From: Desulfuromonas sp.
GTDB taxonomy: Bacteria > Desulfobacterota > Desulfuromonadia > Desulfuromonadales > SZUA-401
Assembly (NCBI GenBank): GCA_002869605.1
Contig: PKUI01000085.1
Location: 347 to 24,113 of the forward strand
DNA length: 23,767 bases
Direction of reading: 5' to 3'
The notes under the pieces were generated by a model. That model was not told where the DNA came from, did not search any database, and saw only the letters and a program-made list of their open reading frames with translations. Positions 2,484-19,257 of the stretch are shown piece after piece (within the stretch, counting starts at the first letter, position 1; every line of letters begins with the position of its first letter). The translations under genes were made by a program, and so were the position numbers.

Positions 2484-4061
2484 GTGGGCATCTCAAGCGA
2501 ACAGCACGCGAATCTCGCGACCTCATTCCGCAGCCTGGCCAAGCTGATCAAGGCTGCGGGCTTTTATCCGCACAATCATCCGGCGCTGGAGGCGGCGCTG
2601 GAACATGCCTACAATCACCTGATCCCCCTTACCTCCGACGATAACCTCGAACTGACCATCAAGAAAAACGCCCTGCTGCTGAACGACGTGCCGATCCTCT
2701 CCGAAGACAGTATCGTCATGAACCTGGCCAACTTCTTTTTCATACGGCGCATAAAAAAGCTCTTTTTCCTCCCCGGCCTCAAGGACCGCGACCTGCTCAC
2801 CTTTGCCCGTATCGTGGCCCACGACCCGGCAACGATCCATAAGCAAAGTGGTGTCGGCGAAATGCTGGTAGACGCCAGGTCGGCCACCATCTGGGCCAAC
2901 GAGATCGACCTTACACGCCTCGAAGCCATGGAAGAAGAGGCTGTCGACGAGGGGACGGTTGAAGTTGACGAGACCGAGGAAGAGCCTCTCCCAGAAGAAG
3001 AGCTTTCCCACGGTGCAGAAGAGCTCTGGCAACAGGACGAAAATGCCGAGCGGACCTTCGAATCGATCATGTGGGAACTGCAGCAGGCCGAATCGGACCA
3101 GGCCTACCAGCAGCTGCTCGACGAACTGCTACCGTTGATCTGGGACAACCTCAACCCCGACAGCCGTTCGCTGATCACGCAACTGTACTTTACTCTGGTC
3201 AGCAACTTCCAGGACCCCAACTTTGCCATGCCGCGGCGCGAGAGTTCGCGCAAAGCCCTTGATGAGATCGGCACCGAACACCACCTGCACTTCCTGATGG
3301 AATCCCTCTGTCTCAAGGACATTCCGAGCTATAACCGCTCTGCAGTGCAGTTTGTTCTGGCCTACTTCGGGACCAAAGTTCTCGAGCCTCTGCTCGACCG
3401 CCTGGTCGAAGAGGAAGACTCGCGCAATCGCCACTACATGCTCGAGGTGCTGCGCAAGCAGCCCCCCGAAGCGCTCCCCAACCTGATGCCGTTTCTCAAG
3501 GACAAGCGCTGGTACGTGGTGCGTAACGTCATCCTGATCCTCGGAGAGATTCGCCACCAGGCGGCGCTGCCGTCACTACTTAAGATGCTCGGCCATCCCG
3601 ACACCCGGGTCCGCCGCGAAGCGTTGCGTGCCATCACCCGCATCGGGGGCCCCCAGGCCGGCAAGATCCTGATCCGGGTGGTCGAAAGGGGAGACCCGCA
3701 CCTCGGTAGCCTCGCGTTGATGTCCATGGGCTCCATGGAAGATCCCGCGGTCGTCGACTTCCTGCGGACCCTGGCCAAGGGTGAACGTCTCGACGAACTC
3801 GAACTCGACGAGGACGTACGCCTCGACGCCATCAAGAGCCTCGGGCAGATCGGCTCTCCATCGGTCATCCCGACCCTGGTCGAGCTGCTGCAATCACGCA
3901 AGTTGTGGCGTCGCAATGAACATGAAAAGATCCGTGCCGCAGCGGCCAAGGCCCTCGGCGACATCGGCGACCCGGCCGTGATCGAGATTCTTGAACGGGC
4001 AAGCCAGGACCGCTCGGAAGAAGTCGCCCGCGCCGCCACCCTCGCACTACGTCAAATCTAA
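2484..4061 (+). CDS. HEAT-repeat protein with N-terminal module shared with its neighbour
   Basis: A predicted cytosolic protein of 525 residues with no signal peptide or membrane segment. Residues 12-115 form a module with YPHNHPALE and L..N.VPILSED that resembles the N-terminus of the following HD-GYP protein. Residues 147-180 are a strongly acidic linker rich in Glu. From about 240 to the end come helical HEAT/PBS-lyase-type repeats, such as ALPNLMPFLKDKRWYVVRN, ALPSLLKMLGHPDTRVRREA and AVIEILERASQDRSEEVARA. HEAT arrays usually mediate protein contacts and suggest a scaffold; no enzymatic motif is visible. The start is GTG at 2484. AGGGG lies 12 nt upstream, rather far, so the start is less certain than the frame. 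The HD-GYP gene begins 13 nt after the stop, implying an operon and joint function. Confidence 0.8.
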   Translation: MGISSEQHANLATSFRSLAKLIKAAGFYPHNHPALEAALEHAYNHLIPLTSDDNLELTIKKNALLLNDVPILSEDSIVMNLANFFFIRRIKKLFFLPGLKDRDLLTFARIVAHDPATIHKQSGVGEMLVDARSATIWANEIDLTRLEAMEEEAVDEGTVEVDETEEEPLPEEELSHGAEELWQQDENAERTFESIMWELQQAESDQAYQQLLDELLPLIWDNLNPDSRSLITQLYFTLVSNFQDPNFAMPRRESSRKALDEIGTEHHLHFLMESLCLKDIPSYNRSAVQFVLAYFGTKVLEPLLDRLVEEEDSRNRHYMLEVLRKQPPEALPNLMPFLKDKRWYVVRNVILILGEIRHQAALPSLLKMLGHPDTRVRREALRAITRIGGPQAGKILIRVVERGDPHLGSLALMSMGSMEDPAVVDFLRTLAKGERLDELELDEDVRLDAIKSLGQIGSPSVIPTLVELLQSRKLWRRNEHEKIRAAAAKALGDIGDPAVIEILERASQDRSEEVARAATLALRQI

Positions 4062-4074
4062 TCGGGACCTATCG

Positions 4075-5406
4075 ATGAATCCTCAACTCTACAAGCAAGT
4101 CGTCCAGGGAATGGCCGGGGTCATGCAGAGCCTGCGTCTCTACCCCCCTGGGCACCCTTCGATCAAACAGCTGGTCCATGGCTGCATGAACGCCCTGCGC
4201 GAACTGTTCAGTGAAAAACGCCAGATCAGCCTCGGCATTCTCGACGACAGCCTGTTCTTCGAAGACGACCTGTTCACCCAGCCGAACGCCGCCATGGATG
4301 AGATGAAGGACCTGCTGGTCGAGCGGGGTGTCTCGCGTATCGAGTTCTCTCCCGAGCTGACCGAACAGGAGTTCCTGGAATTCATCGTCGAGCTCAAAAA
4401 GGGCGAACTCGACGGCGAGCAGCTGGTCGCCATGATCCAGGAGCGGAGCATGCTCGGAATCAAGGTCATTTGCGAAGAGATGGATGAGGAGGAGCCGAAG
4501 GACCCCAAGGAGGTCTACAACCGGGCCATCGAGGTGGTCAAGGACATGTTCCAGGACATCCGCATGGGCAAGATCCCTGACAAAACCAACGCCGACGGCA
4601 TGGTTACCGAGATGATCGAAGTGACCATTGCCCAGCCGCATGCCCTGTTCGCCCTGACCATGATCAAGGACTACGACAACTATACCTTCACCCACTCGGT
4701 CAACGTCTCGGTGCTCTCCCTGGCAGTCGGCAGGGCCTGTAAGGTCCCCGACAAGGGACTGCGCCTGCTCGGCCTCGGCGGCCTGCTGCACGATGTCGGC
4801 AAGCTGCGCGTCGACCTCGGCATCATCAACAAGCCGGGACGCCTCACCAGCGATGAGTTCGAGCAGATCAAGCTGCACCCGGTCAGCGGCGCCGACATCG
4901 TGCGCAAGATGGAGGGGATCACCCAGGAGGTGGTCGACATCGTCAACTACCACCACCTACGCTTTGACCGTAGCGGCTACCCTAAGGACAATCTCAACCG
5001 CAAGCTGTCACCGCTGGTCGACATGGCAACCATCGCCGACACTTACGACGCCATGACCACCCTGCGCTCCTACCAGCGCCCGATCTCTCCCAAGCAGGCG
5101 ATCGCCCAGATGCAGGAGATGGCCGGCACCGTCCTCAACCCCCAGTACCTCGACAACTTCATCCTCTCTCTCGGCAGCTACCCGGTCGGCACCATGGTGC
5201 GCCTGGTCAACAACGAGATCGCCCTGGTGGTTGATGCCGACCAGACCAACCCCAAGGACCTGAAGGTGAAGATCCTCGTCGACGACCAGGGCAAGTACCT
5301 CACCATCCCCAAGGTCCATCATATCCGCGAGCAGGATGCGGACCAGATCGTCGCCGAGGTCGACCCGCTCTCGCGCAAGATCGACATCGGTGAATACATC
5401 CCCTAG
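4075..5406 (+). CDS. HD-GYP domain protein, predicted cyclic-dinucleotide phosphodiesterase
   Basis: A 443-residue protein. HD-GYP domains hydrolyse c-di-GMP (some act on cyclic AMP-GMP). The N-terminal 110 residues (YPPGHPSIKQ, ISLGILDDSLFFEDD, RIEFSPELTEQEFLEF) match the module of the preceding protein. The HD-GYP domain spans about 195-370. Predicted metal ligands are H207, H239-D240 in LLHDVGK, H268, H293-H294 and D322. The signature HHExxDGxGYP is altered to HHLRFDRSGYP (293-303): the acidic residue after HH is Leu and the DG glycine is Arg. A C-terminal beta-rich stretch (370-443) follows. I chose the ATG at 4075 because upstream codons overlap the preceding gene and homology to the neighbour begins here. 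The ribosome site is poor (GGGA), so translation may depend on coupling with the upstream gene. Confidence 0.87.
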   Translation: MNPQLYKQVVQGMAGVMQSLRLYPPGHPSIKQLVHGCMNALRELFSEKRQISLGILDDSLFFEDDLFTQPNAAMDEMKDLLVERGVSRIEFSPELTEQEFLEFIVELKKGELDGEQLVAMIQERSMLGIKVICEEMDEEEPKDPKEVYNRAIEVVKDMFQDIRMGKIPDKTNADGMVTEMIEVTIAQPHALFALTMIKDYDNYTFTHSVNVSVLSLAVGRACKVPDKGLRLLGLGGLLHDVGKLRVDLGIINKPGRLTSDEFEQIKLHPVSGADIVRKMEGITQEVVDIVNYHHLRFDRSGYPKDNLNRKLSPLVDMATIADTYDAMTTLRSYQRPISPKQAIAQMQEMAGTVLNPQYLDNFILSLGSYPVGTMVRLVNNEIALVVDADQTNPKDLKVKILVDDQGKYLTIPKVHHIREQDADQIVAEVDPLSRKIDIGEYIP

Positions 5407-10668: not shown

Positions 10669-11031
10669 TTAACGGCTTTCAAACAACAGGTGCAATTCTT
10701 TCTCGACCTGATCCGGATCACCGGTATTGAGTTCCAGCAAACGGCGCAGATGCGCAAACGATTCAGGGTCGGAGGTGGTGAACTTGAAGCCGATAGCGTT
10801 GCCATTAAAATGCACCGCCTCGGCATTAAAATCGAGAGCGATGTCGCTACCGGAAAGGTCGATCACCAGGTGACAAACCGCCCCTGATTCAACCGTTATC
10901 GGAGGCTCAAAACTGACCAGCGCACCATGCAGGGAGATATCGAGCAAGTGCCCCTCGCTATGCTTCCCCGAAACGTCAAGGTGAGCCTCAGTTGCAAAAG
11001 AAACCCTGCCGAAATGTCGCTTCTCGTTCAT
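10669..11031 (-). CDS. PilZ domain protein, predicted cyclic-di-GMP receptor
   Basis: A 120-residue, single-domain PilZ protein. The two c-di-GMP-binding motifs are present: RxxxR as R5-HFG-R9, and DxSxxG as D31-I-S-L-H-G36. Beta-strand-rich sequence with FNAEAVHFNGNAIGFKF (about 68-84) follows, then a C-terminal helix. There is no attached output domain, so it would act by binding a partner. The ATG at 11029-11031 has an AGGAGGGGAGT ribosome site directly upstream. It starts 21 nt after the ssb stop on the same strand, so the two are likely cotranscribed, an unusual pairing of replication and signalling genes. It ends 24 nt before a bidirectional terminator. Confidence 0.88.
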   Translation of the reverse strand: MNEKRHFGRVSFATEAHLDVSGKHSEGHLLDISLHGALVSFEPPITVESGAVCHLVIDLSGSDIALDFNAEAVHFNGNAIGFKFTTSDPESFAHLRRLLELNTGDPDQVEKELHLLFESR

Positions 11032-17315: not shown

Positions 17316-18176
17316 TCACTTTTTGCGCAGGATGCGCACGACGTCCTCACCCATGATCGGTTGGGGCGCCGCATCGTCCTCAAGCGCGCCCCTCAGCGGA
17401 ACAACCAGCACCTCGCGATCCTTCAGGCTGCGCCCCTGCATGGCCTCGAGCGCCGCATAGAGCTCCTGGGCACGGAACTTAAACACCAGGTCGAGATAGC
17501 CGTCGGGACCGGCGTCACTGCAGTCGAGCTCTCCCTCTTTGCCGCTGACGGGATAGTAGGGAGCCGTGACATCTTCGAATGCAACATGGATCGGCGCGAC
17601 CCCGGCAACGCGCAATGAAGATATATCGACTTGTGACACGTCGAAGGTCTCGGAACCGGTCAATGCCGCCGACACCAGACCCTTTTTGACCGCGTTCAGG
17701 GGATTAGGGCACGACTGGGGCTTGATATCAAAAGGCACCTCCAGGGCCTGCTGCGCAACCTTCACCGGCGCATCGATAGCGACATCGTAATAGCCGTGCT
17801 GCCAGCCACGATAACCAAAGATAAAGGTGAAGGTATACTCACCCGGATCGAGGACCAGAGAATAGGCCTTCTTCACACTCCCGCCCCAATTGAAACCCTT
17901 GACATCGATCGGCTCGGAGTAAGTATGAAACATCCCCTGGTCATCGTAGCTCCATGGGGCATCCTGGTAGAAACCGTAGGCGGTCACGTCCCACGCGGTG
18001 GCATCTTCGAGGTAGCCCTCAACGAGGACCTCGAAGGCCTCACCGGGAAGGACCTGGTCCGGAACGGTAATCATCGTGCAGATCTGCTCCCGACAGGCCG
18101 TGTAGGTGGCCGCCATAGACCAGGAGGCGGAGCACAACAGCAAAAAAAGCAACAACGGTATCTTTCCCCAGGACAT
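17316..18176 (-). CDS. Secreted protein of unknown function behind a riboswitch-like leader
   Basis: A 286-residue protein with a signal peptide at 1-22 (hydrophobic LLLFLLLCSASWS, then Ala-rich cleavage region); no lipobox is evident. C28 and C33 may form a disulfide. The middle (35-140) is beta-rich and aromatic, with PGEYTFTFIFGYRGW. The C-terminal part (149-283) follows a pattern seen in many bacterial exported proteins: FDIKP.S.PN.LN, KG.VSAALTGSE.FDVSQVD and DGYLDLVFKF. No enzyme motif is recognised. The start is ATG 18174-18176, after GGAGGAACGT; the open frame continuing upstream runs through the leader and is not convincing. Expression is probably controlled by the leader at 18214-18362. 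The gene converges on ftsK. Confidence 0.78.
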   Translation of the reverse strand: MSWGKIPLLLFLLLCSASWSMAATYTACREQICTMITVPDQVLPGEAFEVLVEGYLEDATAWDVTAYGFYQDAPWSYDDQGMFHTYSEPIDVKGFNWGGSVKKAYSLVLDPGEYTFTFIFGYRGWQHGYYDVAIDAPVKVAQQALEVPFDIKPQSCPNPLNAVKKGLVSAALTGSETFDVSQVDISSLRVAGVAPIHVAFEDVTAPYYPVSGKEGELDCSDAGPDGYLDLVFKFRAQELYAALEAMQGRSLKDREVLVVPLRGALEDDAAPQPIMGEDVVRILRKK

Positions 18177-18210
18177 ACGTTCCTCCACTCGGTTCGCGCT
18201 GTAGATTATC

Positions 18211-18245
18211 CACAAAAAAAACGAGCCTCCGTATCCGAAGGTTCG
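18211..18245 (-). terminator. Leader intrinsic terminator (attenuator) before the secreted-protein gene
   Basis: On the minus strand CCTTCG/CGGAGG (18241-18236 with 18231-18226), closed by a GATA loop and extended by three outer pairs across one mismatch, is followed closely by eight T (18221-18214). It lies 38 bp before the start codon, the layout of a transcriptional attenuator. Confidence 0.75.
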
Positions 18246-18279
18246 CCGGGTAGTTACAGGCTGAGGATGAAAACCAGGC

Positions 18280-18362
18280 ATCTCTTCGGTGGCTGGGCGA
18301 CCTCATCGCAAGGTCCCTGGCTCTGTGCCCCCGGGTCGCCCCGGGTTTACTCTTTCGGAGAT
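18280..18362 (-). promoter_or_regulatory. GEMM-I-like cyclic-dinucleotide riboswitch aptamer
   Basis: Read on the minus strand: P1 AUCUC/GAGAU (18362-18358 with 18284-18280); UAAA; P2 CCCGGG-GCGA-CCCGGG (18345-18330) with a GNRA tetraloop; J2/3 GGCACAGAGCC (18329-18319), 8 of 11 identical to GACGCAAAGCC of the c-di-GMP-I class; P3 GGG-ACCU/AGGU-CG-CCC (18317-18295) with a 2-nt bulge; then GCCACCGA, similar to GUUACCGA. The base aligned with Vc2 G20 is A (18351). The layout fits GEMM-I, but several conserved positions differ, so I hold this as a degenerate or variant member. CCGAAG at its 3' edge can pair with CUUCGG of the downstream terminator. Ligand not determined. Confidence 0.55.
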
Positions 18363-18363
18363 T

Positions 18364-18391
18364 TATTTAAAATACACCAGCATGCAGACAA
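18364..18391 (-). promoter_or_regulatory. Putative sigma-70 promoter of the riboswitch transcript
   Basis: On the minus strand TTGTCT (18391-18386), a 16-bp spacer and TAAATA (18369-18364). The predicted start near 18357 would clip the proposed P1. The alternative TTTACC-17-TATTTT starts about 11 nt earlier and would keep P1 intact. Confidence 0.4.
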
Positions 18392-18413
18392 GGTAAAGGC
18401 GTAGTGTTATAGA
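18385..18413 (+). promoter_or_regulatory. Putative sigma-70 promoter of the DUF362 gene
   Basis: CAGACA (18385-18390), a 17-bp spacer and TATAGA (18408-18413). Its -35 overlaps that of the divergent minus-strand promoter. Confidence 0.4.
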
Positions 18414-18462
18414 GCGACTTAACCTTCGCCACGACTTTACATAACCATTCAAGGAACAGTCG

Positions 18463-19257
18463 ATGCTCACCCCCTGTCACACAGAAACCTATTCCAGCTA
18501 TACCAATACCCTTCCGCGCGCACTGAACGCGATAGGCGCTGTAGACGTACTTGCAGAGCAAAACAACATCCTGATCAAGCCGAATCTGGTCAACGCCTCA
18601 CCGCCCCCCGTTACCTTGCCGGTTGTGGCCGTTGAAGAGCTGGTGCGCTACATCCGTACCTGCTCAAATGCGCGAATCGTTATCGGCGAGGGGTGCGAAG
18701 AGAAACAGCTAGAGACTGACGAACTGTTCCGCATCCACGGCTACGAGCGCCTGGTGCAGGAATACGGTGTCGAATTGCTCGACCTCAACCACGCGCCGCT
18801 TTGCCGCCTGAGCAACCCTGACTGTCAAATCTTCCCGGAAATCTGGCTGCCCGAAATCGTCATGGACGCCTATCTGGTCTCGTTTGCCGTCCTCAAAGCC
18901 CACTCGCTGGCGGATGTCACCCTGAGCATGAAGAACCTCATCGGCTGCGCGCCCCCTGCGCACTACCAACAGGGCGGACACTGGAAAAAGTCAGCCTTCC
19001 ACGCCCACATGCACGAATCTATCCTCGACCTCAACCGCTACCGCAAACCGGACCTGGCACTGCTCGACGCCTCGATCGGCATGGCTGAATATCATCTGGG
19101 CGGTCCGCCTTGCGAGCCGCCGACCGGCAAGTTTGTCGCCGGCTTCGACCCGGTGGCGGTCGATGCCGCCGGGGCCGGACTACTCGGCTTTGACTGGCGC
19201 CAGATCCCGCATATTTCCAAGGCCGACGGGTTGCTCGGAGACGCCGAACATCTCTGA
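18463..19257 (+). CDS. DUF362 domain protein
   Basis: A 264-residue protein of the DUF362 family, whose biochemical role is not established. Supporting blocks are ILIKPNLVNASPPP (about 31-44), RIVIGEGCEE (about 70-79), SFAVLKAHSLADVTLSMKNLIGCAPP (about 143-168), the histidine-rich FHAHMHESILDLNRY (about 181-195) and FVAGFDPVAVDAAGAGLLGFD (about 227-247). No ferredoxin domain is attached, unlike some members. No signal peptide or membrane segment is visible, so it is probably cytosolic. The ATG at 18463 has AAGGAA 6 nt upstream. The larB gene follows after 71 bp with its own putative promoter, so linkage to the Lar genes may be only positional. Confidence 0.82.
   Translation: MLTPCHTETYSSYTNTLPRALNAIGAVDVLAEQNNILIKPNLVNASPPPVTLPVVAVEELVRYIRTCSNARIVIGEGCEEKQLETDELFRIHGYERLVQEYGVELLDLNHAPLCRLSNPDCQIFPEIWLPEIVMDAYLVSFAVLKAHSLADVTLSMKNLIGCAPPAHYQQGGHWKKSAFHAHMHESILDLNRYRKPDLALLDASIGMAEYHLGGPPCEPPTGKFVAGFDPVAVDAAGAGLLGFDWRQIPHISKADGLLGDAEHL

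Follow-up and report, generated by a model that had tools for sequence, protein, structure and literature searches.

A GEMM-I riboswitch candidate with A20 on a G21-C46 scaffold, predicted to terminate transcription ahead of an exported-protein gene in Desulfuromonas

A stretch of 23,767 nucleotides from Desulfuromonas sp., analysed at its full length and called the window below, carries between positions 18211 and 18362 of its minus strand a leader that is tentatively read, with a probability of roughly 40%, as a GEMM-I riboswitch acting by transcription termination on an exported-protein gene, whose expression would fall when 3',3'-cGAMP, perhaps also c-di-GMP, is bound. It is a member of a known family with a variant combination of scaffold and switching logic. 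In the proposed mechanism, absence of the ligand would let CCGAAG of the aptamer pair with CUUCGG of the terminator and the 5' strand of P1 pair with CGGAGG, an antiterminator pairing with which the terminator could not form and the gene would be read; binding of the ligand would close P1 and free the terminator arms, and transcription would stop.

Among 4227 Rfam families searched with cmscan, the single match above cut-off in the window was to RF01051 (c-di-GMP-I) at 18361-18285 on the minus strand, the strand of all features of the leader and its gene given here, with 43.2 bits against a cut-off of 35 and an E-value of 1.5e-5. An earlier sequence-only reading had assigned the element to GEMM-I and named RF01051 as the check, and the score confirms that assignment. 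In a 601-base search, RF03167 (c-di-GMP-I-GGC) of the same clan gave the aptamer (18285-18361) 49.4 bits, below its own cut-off of 59; on that score, and because the window has A47 and not G47, membership of RF03167 was rejected. The features of the GEMM-I class are present (P1, P2, P3, conserved J1/2 and J2/3 bases and a 3' CCGA), including the P1, GNRA-capped P2, bulged P3 and 3' CACCGA described earlier, with the 3' end reading CACCGAA and the P2 loop GCGA. The 5' strand of P1, AUCUC (18358-18362), pairs with GAGAU (18280-18284) in the fold of the aptamer alone; the P2 hairpin with its tetraloop occupies 18330-18345, and the bulged P3 spans 18291-18321 with approximate ends, both according to the RF01051 alignment and the fold. 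Positions within the aptamer are given by Vc2 numbers, which we take to apply to the window. A18351 aligns with RF01051 model position 11 and stands, as had been claimed, at the equivalent of Vc2 G20, the ligand-contacting specificity base. A47 (A18324) and C92 (C18289), the Watson-Crick partner of the ligand's G, are kept in the alignment, and A20, A47 and C92 together are the pocket of cGAMP-type GEMM-I aptamers. G21 and U22 (18349-18350) pair with C46 and A45 (18325-18326), which lie with A47, G48 and A49 in the J2/3 strand GGCACAGA (18322-18329). The 11-nt J2/3 of the earlier reading is not wholly single-stranded: U18349 pairs with A18326 (pair 22-45) and G18350 with C18325 (pair 21-46).

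The scaffold of the window is A20 with G21-C46 (G18350-C18325) and with U22-A45 in place of C22-G45. In the solved Geobacter cGAMP aptamer, A14 is adjoined by a reported C15-G40 pair (PMC6274999), which is C21-G46 in Vc2 numbers, and aptamers of the Geobacter kind read from genomes outside the order have A20, C21-G46 and U22.G45. The likeness to Geobacter GEMM-Ib drawn earlier from A20 therefore holds for that base and fails for the scaffold. The order searched was that of G001 (Deltaproteobacteria bacterium IMCC39146, which holds L001), probably Desulfuromonadales, and includes the Desulfuromonas MAG G002. The window probably belongs to it, to judge from its ftsK DNA and from the orthologues of the downstream gene. 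A pattern for A20 with G21-C46 (AGCAAA-N15..22-GACGCARAG) matched 80/136 genomes of the order and 132/277 of the class; a reversed-pattern control matched 17/136 genomes, with five matches in G001 itself, and some of the listed pattern matches had no complementary P2, so part of these counts is chance. A Geobacter-type pattern for A20, C21-G46 and U22.G45 (ACTAAA-N15..18-GRCGGAAAG) matched 143/277 genomes of the class, comprising 19/136 within the order, two of them chance-like, and 124/141 outside it, where the genomes probably include Geobacter, to judge from the aptamer type. The differing counts inside and outside the order imply that A20 occurs on two scaffolds with different distributions, and by its sequence the window is a carrier of the A20 scaffold common in its order. 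Other kinds of aptamer occur in the same order. A pattern for G20 with C21-G46 (GCCAAA..GACGGAAAG) was found in 52/136 genomes, at L008, L009, L024, L032, L034, L095-L103, L105 and other loci. G001 has 36 GEMM-I matches in one genome, and three kinds of pocket and scaffold stand together among the 24 read (10 A20/G21, 6 G20/G21 and 8 G20/C21); the Geobacter-type pattern was absent from G001 in the pattern search. Two loci of G245 (L172 and L185) have C at position 20 (CGCAAAA..GACGCAAAG) with A47 kept and a separate terminator; a specificity base that is neither G nor A may mark a further ligand variant.

The suggestion that the J2/3 differences mark a new variant with altered ligand preference finds no support. 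The changes are ordinary variation: of 36 distinct A20/G21-C46 cores, counting that of the window, 5 have U22-A45, 7 have G48 and 4 have GGC in place of GAC. These cores were selected by a filter for pairs 21-46 and 22-45 and for a P2 with five of its six pairs, which makes their pairing no evidence by itself. A new ligand specificity arising from J2/3 can draw on the combination of A20, U22-A45, G48 and a shorter J1/2, which was absent from the other A20 aptamers read, but every single change occurs in other A20 or G20 aptamers and in the pocket A47 and C92 are kept; a new ligand class was rejected on the former ground, and such a specificity is scarcely credible. Most A20 relatives read have one base more in J1/2 than the window. 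U22-A45 is accompanied by G20 at L110 (of G026), L114-L116 and L125, which by eye also have the J1/2 shortened by one base.

Within 18211-18362 there is also an intrinsic terminator, overlooked by the earlier reading along with the predicted OFF logic. It consists of a hairpin (18245-18222, core stem 18241-18226, -11.1 kcal/mol) followed by eight U (18221-18214), begins 44 nt beyond C92, has no base in common with the aptamer and precedes the start codon; the window has no terminator of the GEMM-Ib ON kind, which contains the aptamer 3' strand. Both aptamer strands have a complement in the terminator, the 3' strand in its 5' arm and the 5' strand in its 3' arm: CCGAAG (18284-18289) pairs in the minimum free energy (MFE) fold of the 151-nt leader with CUUCGG (18235-18240), which forms part of the 5' arm and the loop. 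Such pairing between the 3' strand of the aptamer and the 5' arm of a separate terminator predicts an OFF switch. The ligand-free MFE of the 151-nt leader is -52.0 kcal/mol, in a fold where CCGAAG pairs with CUUCGG and the 3' arm of the terminator is taken up by the 5' strand of P1. With P1 enforced it is -48.7 kcal/mol and the terminator core then forms, and the fold with the terminator and without P1 has -50.7 kcal/mol, 1.3 above the antiterminator. Pair probabilities in the same leader are 0.82 for the antiterminator, 0.18 for the terminator and 0.005 for P1. In step-wise MFE folds P1 is present at 85-90 and 125-130 nt and the antiterminator between 135 and 150 nt. Transcripts long enough to hold the whole U-run (155 and 160 nt) have the terminator hairpin, so folding alone gives no firm OFF call. 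Ranked against 686 terminators of the same loci as controls, the arm pairings of the window have marginal q values of 0.047 (5' arm) and 0.038 (3' arm), and 2/200 shuffles of the 5' arm matched its pairing. Within the order, q<=0.05 on the 5' arm is attained by 9/27 A20/G21-C46 leaders and missed by 18/27 (combined p 5e-7, kinship ignored), and on the 3' arm it is attained by 2/27; for G20 leaders the counts are 11/16 and 1/16, and outside the order 1/4 A20 and 3/9 G20 leaders reach it on the 5' arm. These tests support a predicted antiterminator mechanism as a tendency of the class and modestly in the window; it is not borne out in the leaders of two orthologues, L127 and L129, which have separate terminators but antiterminator pairings short of significance (q 0.96 and 0.50). 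A scan of 18100-18500 passed no minus-strand sigma-70-like promoter.

Across genomes, the type of terminator goes with the orientation of pair 21-46. Terminators were sought as hairpins of at most 49 nt with loops of at most 10, in a non-random sample of loci, many of them fetched by the A20/G21-C46 and G20/C21-G46 patterns. In a first set of 103 aptamers, 15 of them lacking a 3' end, C21-G46 aptamers had 16 terminators overlapping the aptamer, 2 separate and 1 none, and G21-C46 aptamers had 2 overlapping, 55 separate and 12 none. For a stricter set of 101 distinct aptamers, window included, loci were added, a P3 helix of -4 kcal/mol or lower was required and repeated cores were dropped, which removed from the first set 4 overlapping, both separate (L026 and L106) and 1 terminator-less C21-G46 aptamers, and 11 separate and 3 terminator-less G21-C46 aptamers. 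The stricter set has 59 separate, 3 overlapping (L023, L064 and L188) and 14 without terminator for G21-C46, and 0 separate, 24 overlapping and 1 without for C21-G46. Both counts point the same way, and the link has a Fisher p of 2e-18, with relatives counted separately and loci partly pattern-selected. G20/C21-G46 aptamers with a terminator found had it overlapping in 15/17 cases in the first set and in 13/13 under the stricter filter. The overlapping type agrees with published ON switches: the pilM terminator is reported to take in an aptamer strand (PMC9262584), and expression of G. sulfurreducens genes behind GEMM-Ib is reported to fall on loss of the cGAMP synthase (PMC6456294).

A cGAMP ON switch like Geobacter GEMM-Ib is an improbable reading of the window. 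It would agree with the GEMM-Ib leaders studied in Geobacter, which are reported to be ON (PMC6456294, PMC9262584), and with the A20/C21-G46 leaders outside the order, among which all 10 terminators located overlap the aptamer (one further leader gave none), but the terminator of the window is separate, as are 27/28 of the terminators located in A20/G21-C46 leaders of the order. In full, without the window, the A20 aptamers of the order comprise 27 separate, 1 overlapping and 4 without terminator for G21-C46 and 1 overlapping for C21-G46, and outside the order the 4 with G21-C46 are separate. An ON-like reading of the window was also obtained from a false 66-nt fold, in scan segments of up to 69 nt that merged aptamer and terminator, and was rejected; that scan, which gave 12 overlapping, 21 separate, 2 none and 5 without 3' end for A20 and 18, 29, 0 and 16, respectively, for G20, is superseded.

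Downstream of the leader lies, as had been claimed, a gene for an exported protein (17316-18176, ATG at 18176) of 286 aa with a hydrophobic, signal-like N-terminus by eye, preceded by GGAGGA (18181-18186), a likely ribosome-binding site; it is oriented toward ftsK and away from a DUF362 gene. Searches for its family gave no match in Pfam at E<=1 or at E<=0.001, in NCBIfam or among PDB sequences at E<=1. The protein has 357 relatives at E<=0.001; among the best 120 of these, the first 35 cover 94-100% of the query and the other 85 cover 46-85%, and some carry PKD and other Pfam domains. L003 and L004 match only residues 144-286 and 149-286, and the invariant columns of a 30-protein alignment all lie within residues 150-174, so the shared part is the C-terminal half. 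That part, from about residue 145 to 286 (FDIKPQSCPNPLN...DGYLDL), recurs in otherwise different proteins. Elsewhere in the window, 3991-5406 on the plus strand encodes HD_5 and HD domains with an HD-GYP-like motif by eye, possibly a cyclic-dinucleotide phosphodiesterase, and 10669-11031 on the minus strand encodes a protein with a PilZ domain, a usual type of c-di-GMP receptor.

Near-full-length relatives of the downstream protein are encoded by 6 genes in 5/136 genomes of the order, at 39-54% identity, and one more genome has a weak partial match. A GEMM-I aptamer lies upstream of 2/6 of these orthologues (L127 and L129, in G001 and G018), both with A20; for the other 4/6, which include the G004 orthologue adjoining ftsK as in the window, the flanks fetched yielded no GEMM-I hit at E<=10. 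The ftsK DNA of the window has its best identity, 84%, in G106 and G026, neither of which has an orthologue at E<=0.001. That the leader is a decayed or non-functional GEMM-I remnant is very unlikely: the syntenic orthologue without a GEMM-I match, and an RF03167 score in the window that is the lowest of the gene's three leaders (49.4 against 56.8 and 55.4 bits), would fit decay, but the pocket bases, P1-P3, tetraloop, terminator, ribosome-binding site and open gene are all intact, and U22-A45 is a compensated change.

The ligand would most likely be cGAMP, to judge from A20 and from the Hypr-type GGDEF domains that relatives encode, with c-di-GMP or both as the main rival. Ser at the Hypr position, which we take to be the Ser of GHxxGS, is present in 3 of the 11 GGDEF domains read in G001 (13 found) and in 1 of the 15 read in G026 (17 fetched, 21 found), and the Ser-bearing domains carry GGDEF or GGDDF motifs. 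A GGDDF synthase is reported to be active in G. sulfurreducens (PMC8835794). According to published accounts, cGAMP contacts A14, A41 and C75 in the Geobacter structure (PMC7288161, PMC6274999), the pgcA aptamer prefers cGAMP about 1200-fold and A20G converts a Geobacter cGAMP aptamer to c-di-GMP (PMC6456294). A G20A mutant of a c-di-GMP-I riboswitch is reported to bind cGAMP also (PMC7288161), so the Geobacter scaffold is not required for A20 to work. In a Desulfobacca A-variant, c-AMP-GMP affinity was reportedly gained and c-di-GMP affinity perhaps slightly weakened (PMC9481103), so A20 alone need not exclude c-di-GMP. It is quite possible that the OFF architecture is kept with c-di-GMP, or both dinucleotides on a par, as the physiological ligand, A20 being tolerated or giving dual specificity on G21-C46. 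Such a ligand would be in keeping with the c-di-GMP affinity kept by that variant, with a scaffold that is also that of G20/G21-C46 aptamers, which have separate terminators in 25/27 cases with a terminator found, and with the U22-A45 aptamers read, of which 4 of 13 have A20 and 9 have G20, including L110 of the near relative G026. Against it stand the Hypr-type domains of relatives, the spread of the A20/G21-C46 pattern through 80 of the order's genomes against 17 for the control, and the occurrence of such aptamers beside G20 aptamers in one genome (G001), which suggests two signals.

If the A20 aptamers with G21-C46 are cGAMP OFF switches, some genes of the cGAMP regulon of Desulfuromonas-like bacteria would be repressed, and the direction of a switch could be predicted from one base pair of the sequence, 21-46; if c-di-GMP is bound instead, A20 would be insufficient for annotating a cGAMP riboswitch and annotations based on it would need correction. 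A broader proposal, less likely than not, is that the orientation of pair 21-46 marks two old GEMM-I lineages in the class, OFF (G21-C46, with a separate terminator) and ON (C21-G46, with a terminator that shares the aptamer), and that A20 arose in both, so that Geobacter and relatives near Desulfuromonas would draw opposite outputs, ON and OFF, from the same cGAMP signal. The cGAMP riboswitches described in the literature surveyed are ON-type switches of Geobacter, and a search of abstracts and mainly open-access papers found neither an OFF-type cGAMP riboswitch nor a link between pair 21-46 and the terminator described.

Compared with the GEMM-Ib riboswitches of Geobacter (such as G. metallireducens pilM and G. 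sulfurreducens pgcA), the window has the same GEMM-I fold, A20/A47/C92 and a transcriptional terminator, and it precedes an exported-protein gene, as many GEMM-Ib aptamers are reported to precede genes for extracellular or exported proteins (PMC6456294). The solved Geobacter aptamer has C21-G46, and the GEMM-Ib terminator is described as built with an aptamer strand and the switch as ON (PMC9262584), whereas the window has G21-C46, U22-A45 and a separate terminator and is predicted to be OFF; were C21-G46 a criterion of the GEMM-Ib subclass, the window would fall outside it. The c-di-GMP-I riboswitches (RF01051; Vc2 and Cd1) share the fold, and the G20/G21-C46 aptamers read share the scaffold, with G20 replaced by A in the window; Cd1 is reported to be an OFF switch with a terminator separate from its aptamer (PMC9262584), like the prediction for the window. 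RF03167, although it gives the clan's highest bit score on the window, has by our reading of its alignment a consensus of G20/G47 as against A20/A47, and RF03168 (c-di-GMP-I-UAU), of the same clan, was rejected on a consensus, likewise read from the alignment, of U20/U92 as against A20/C92.
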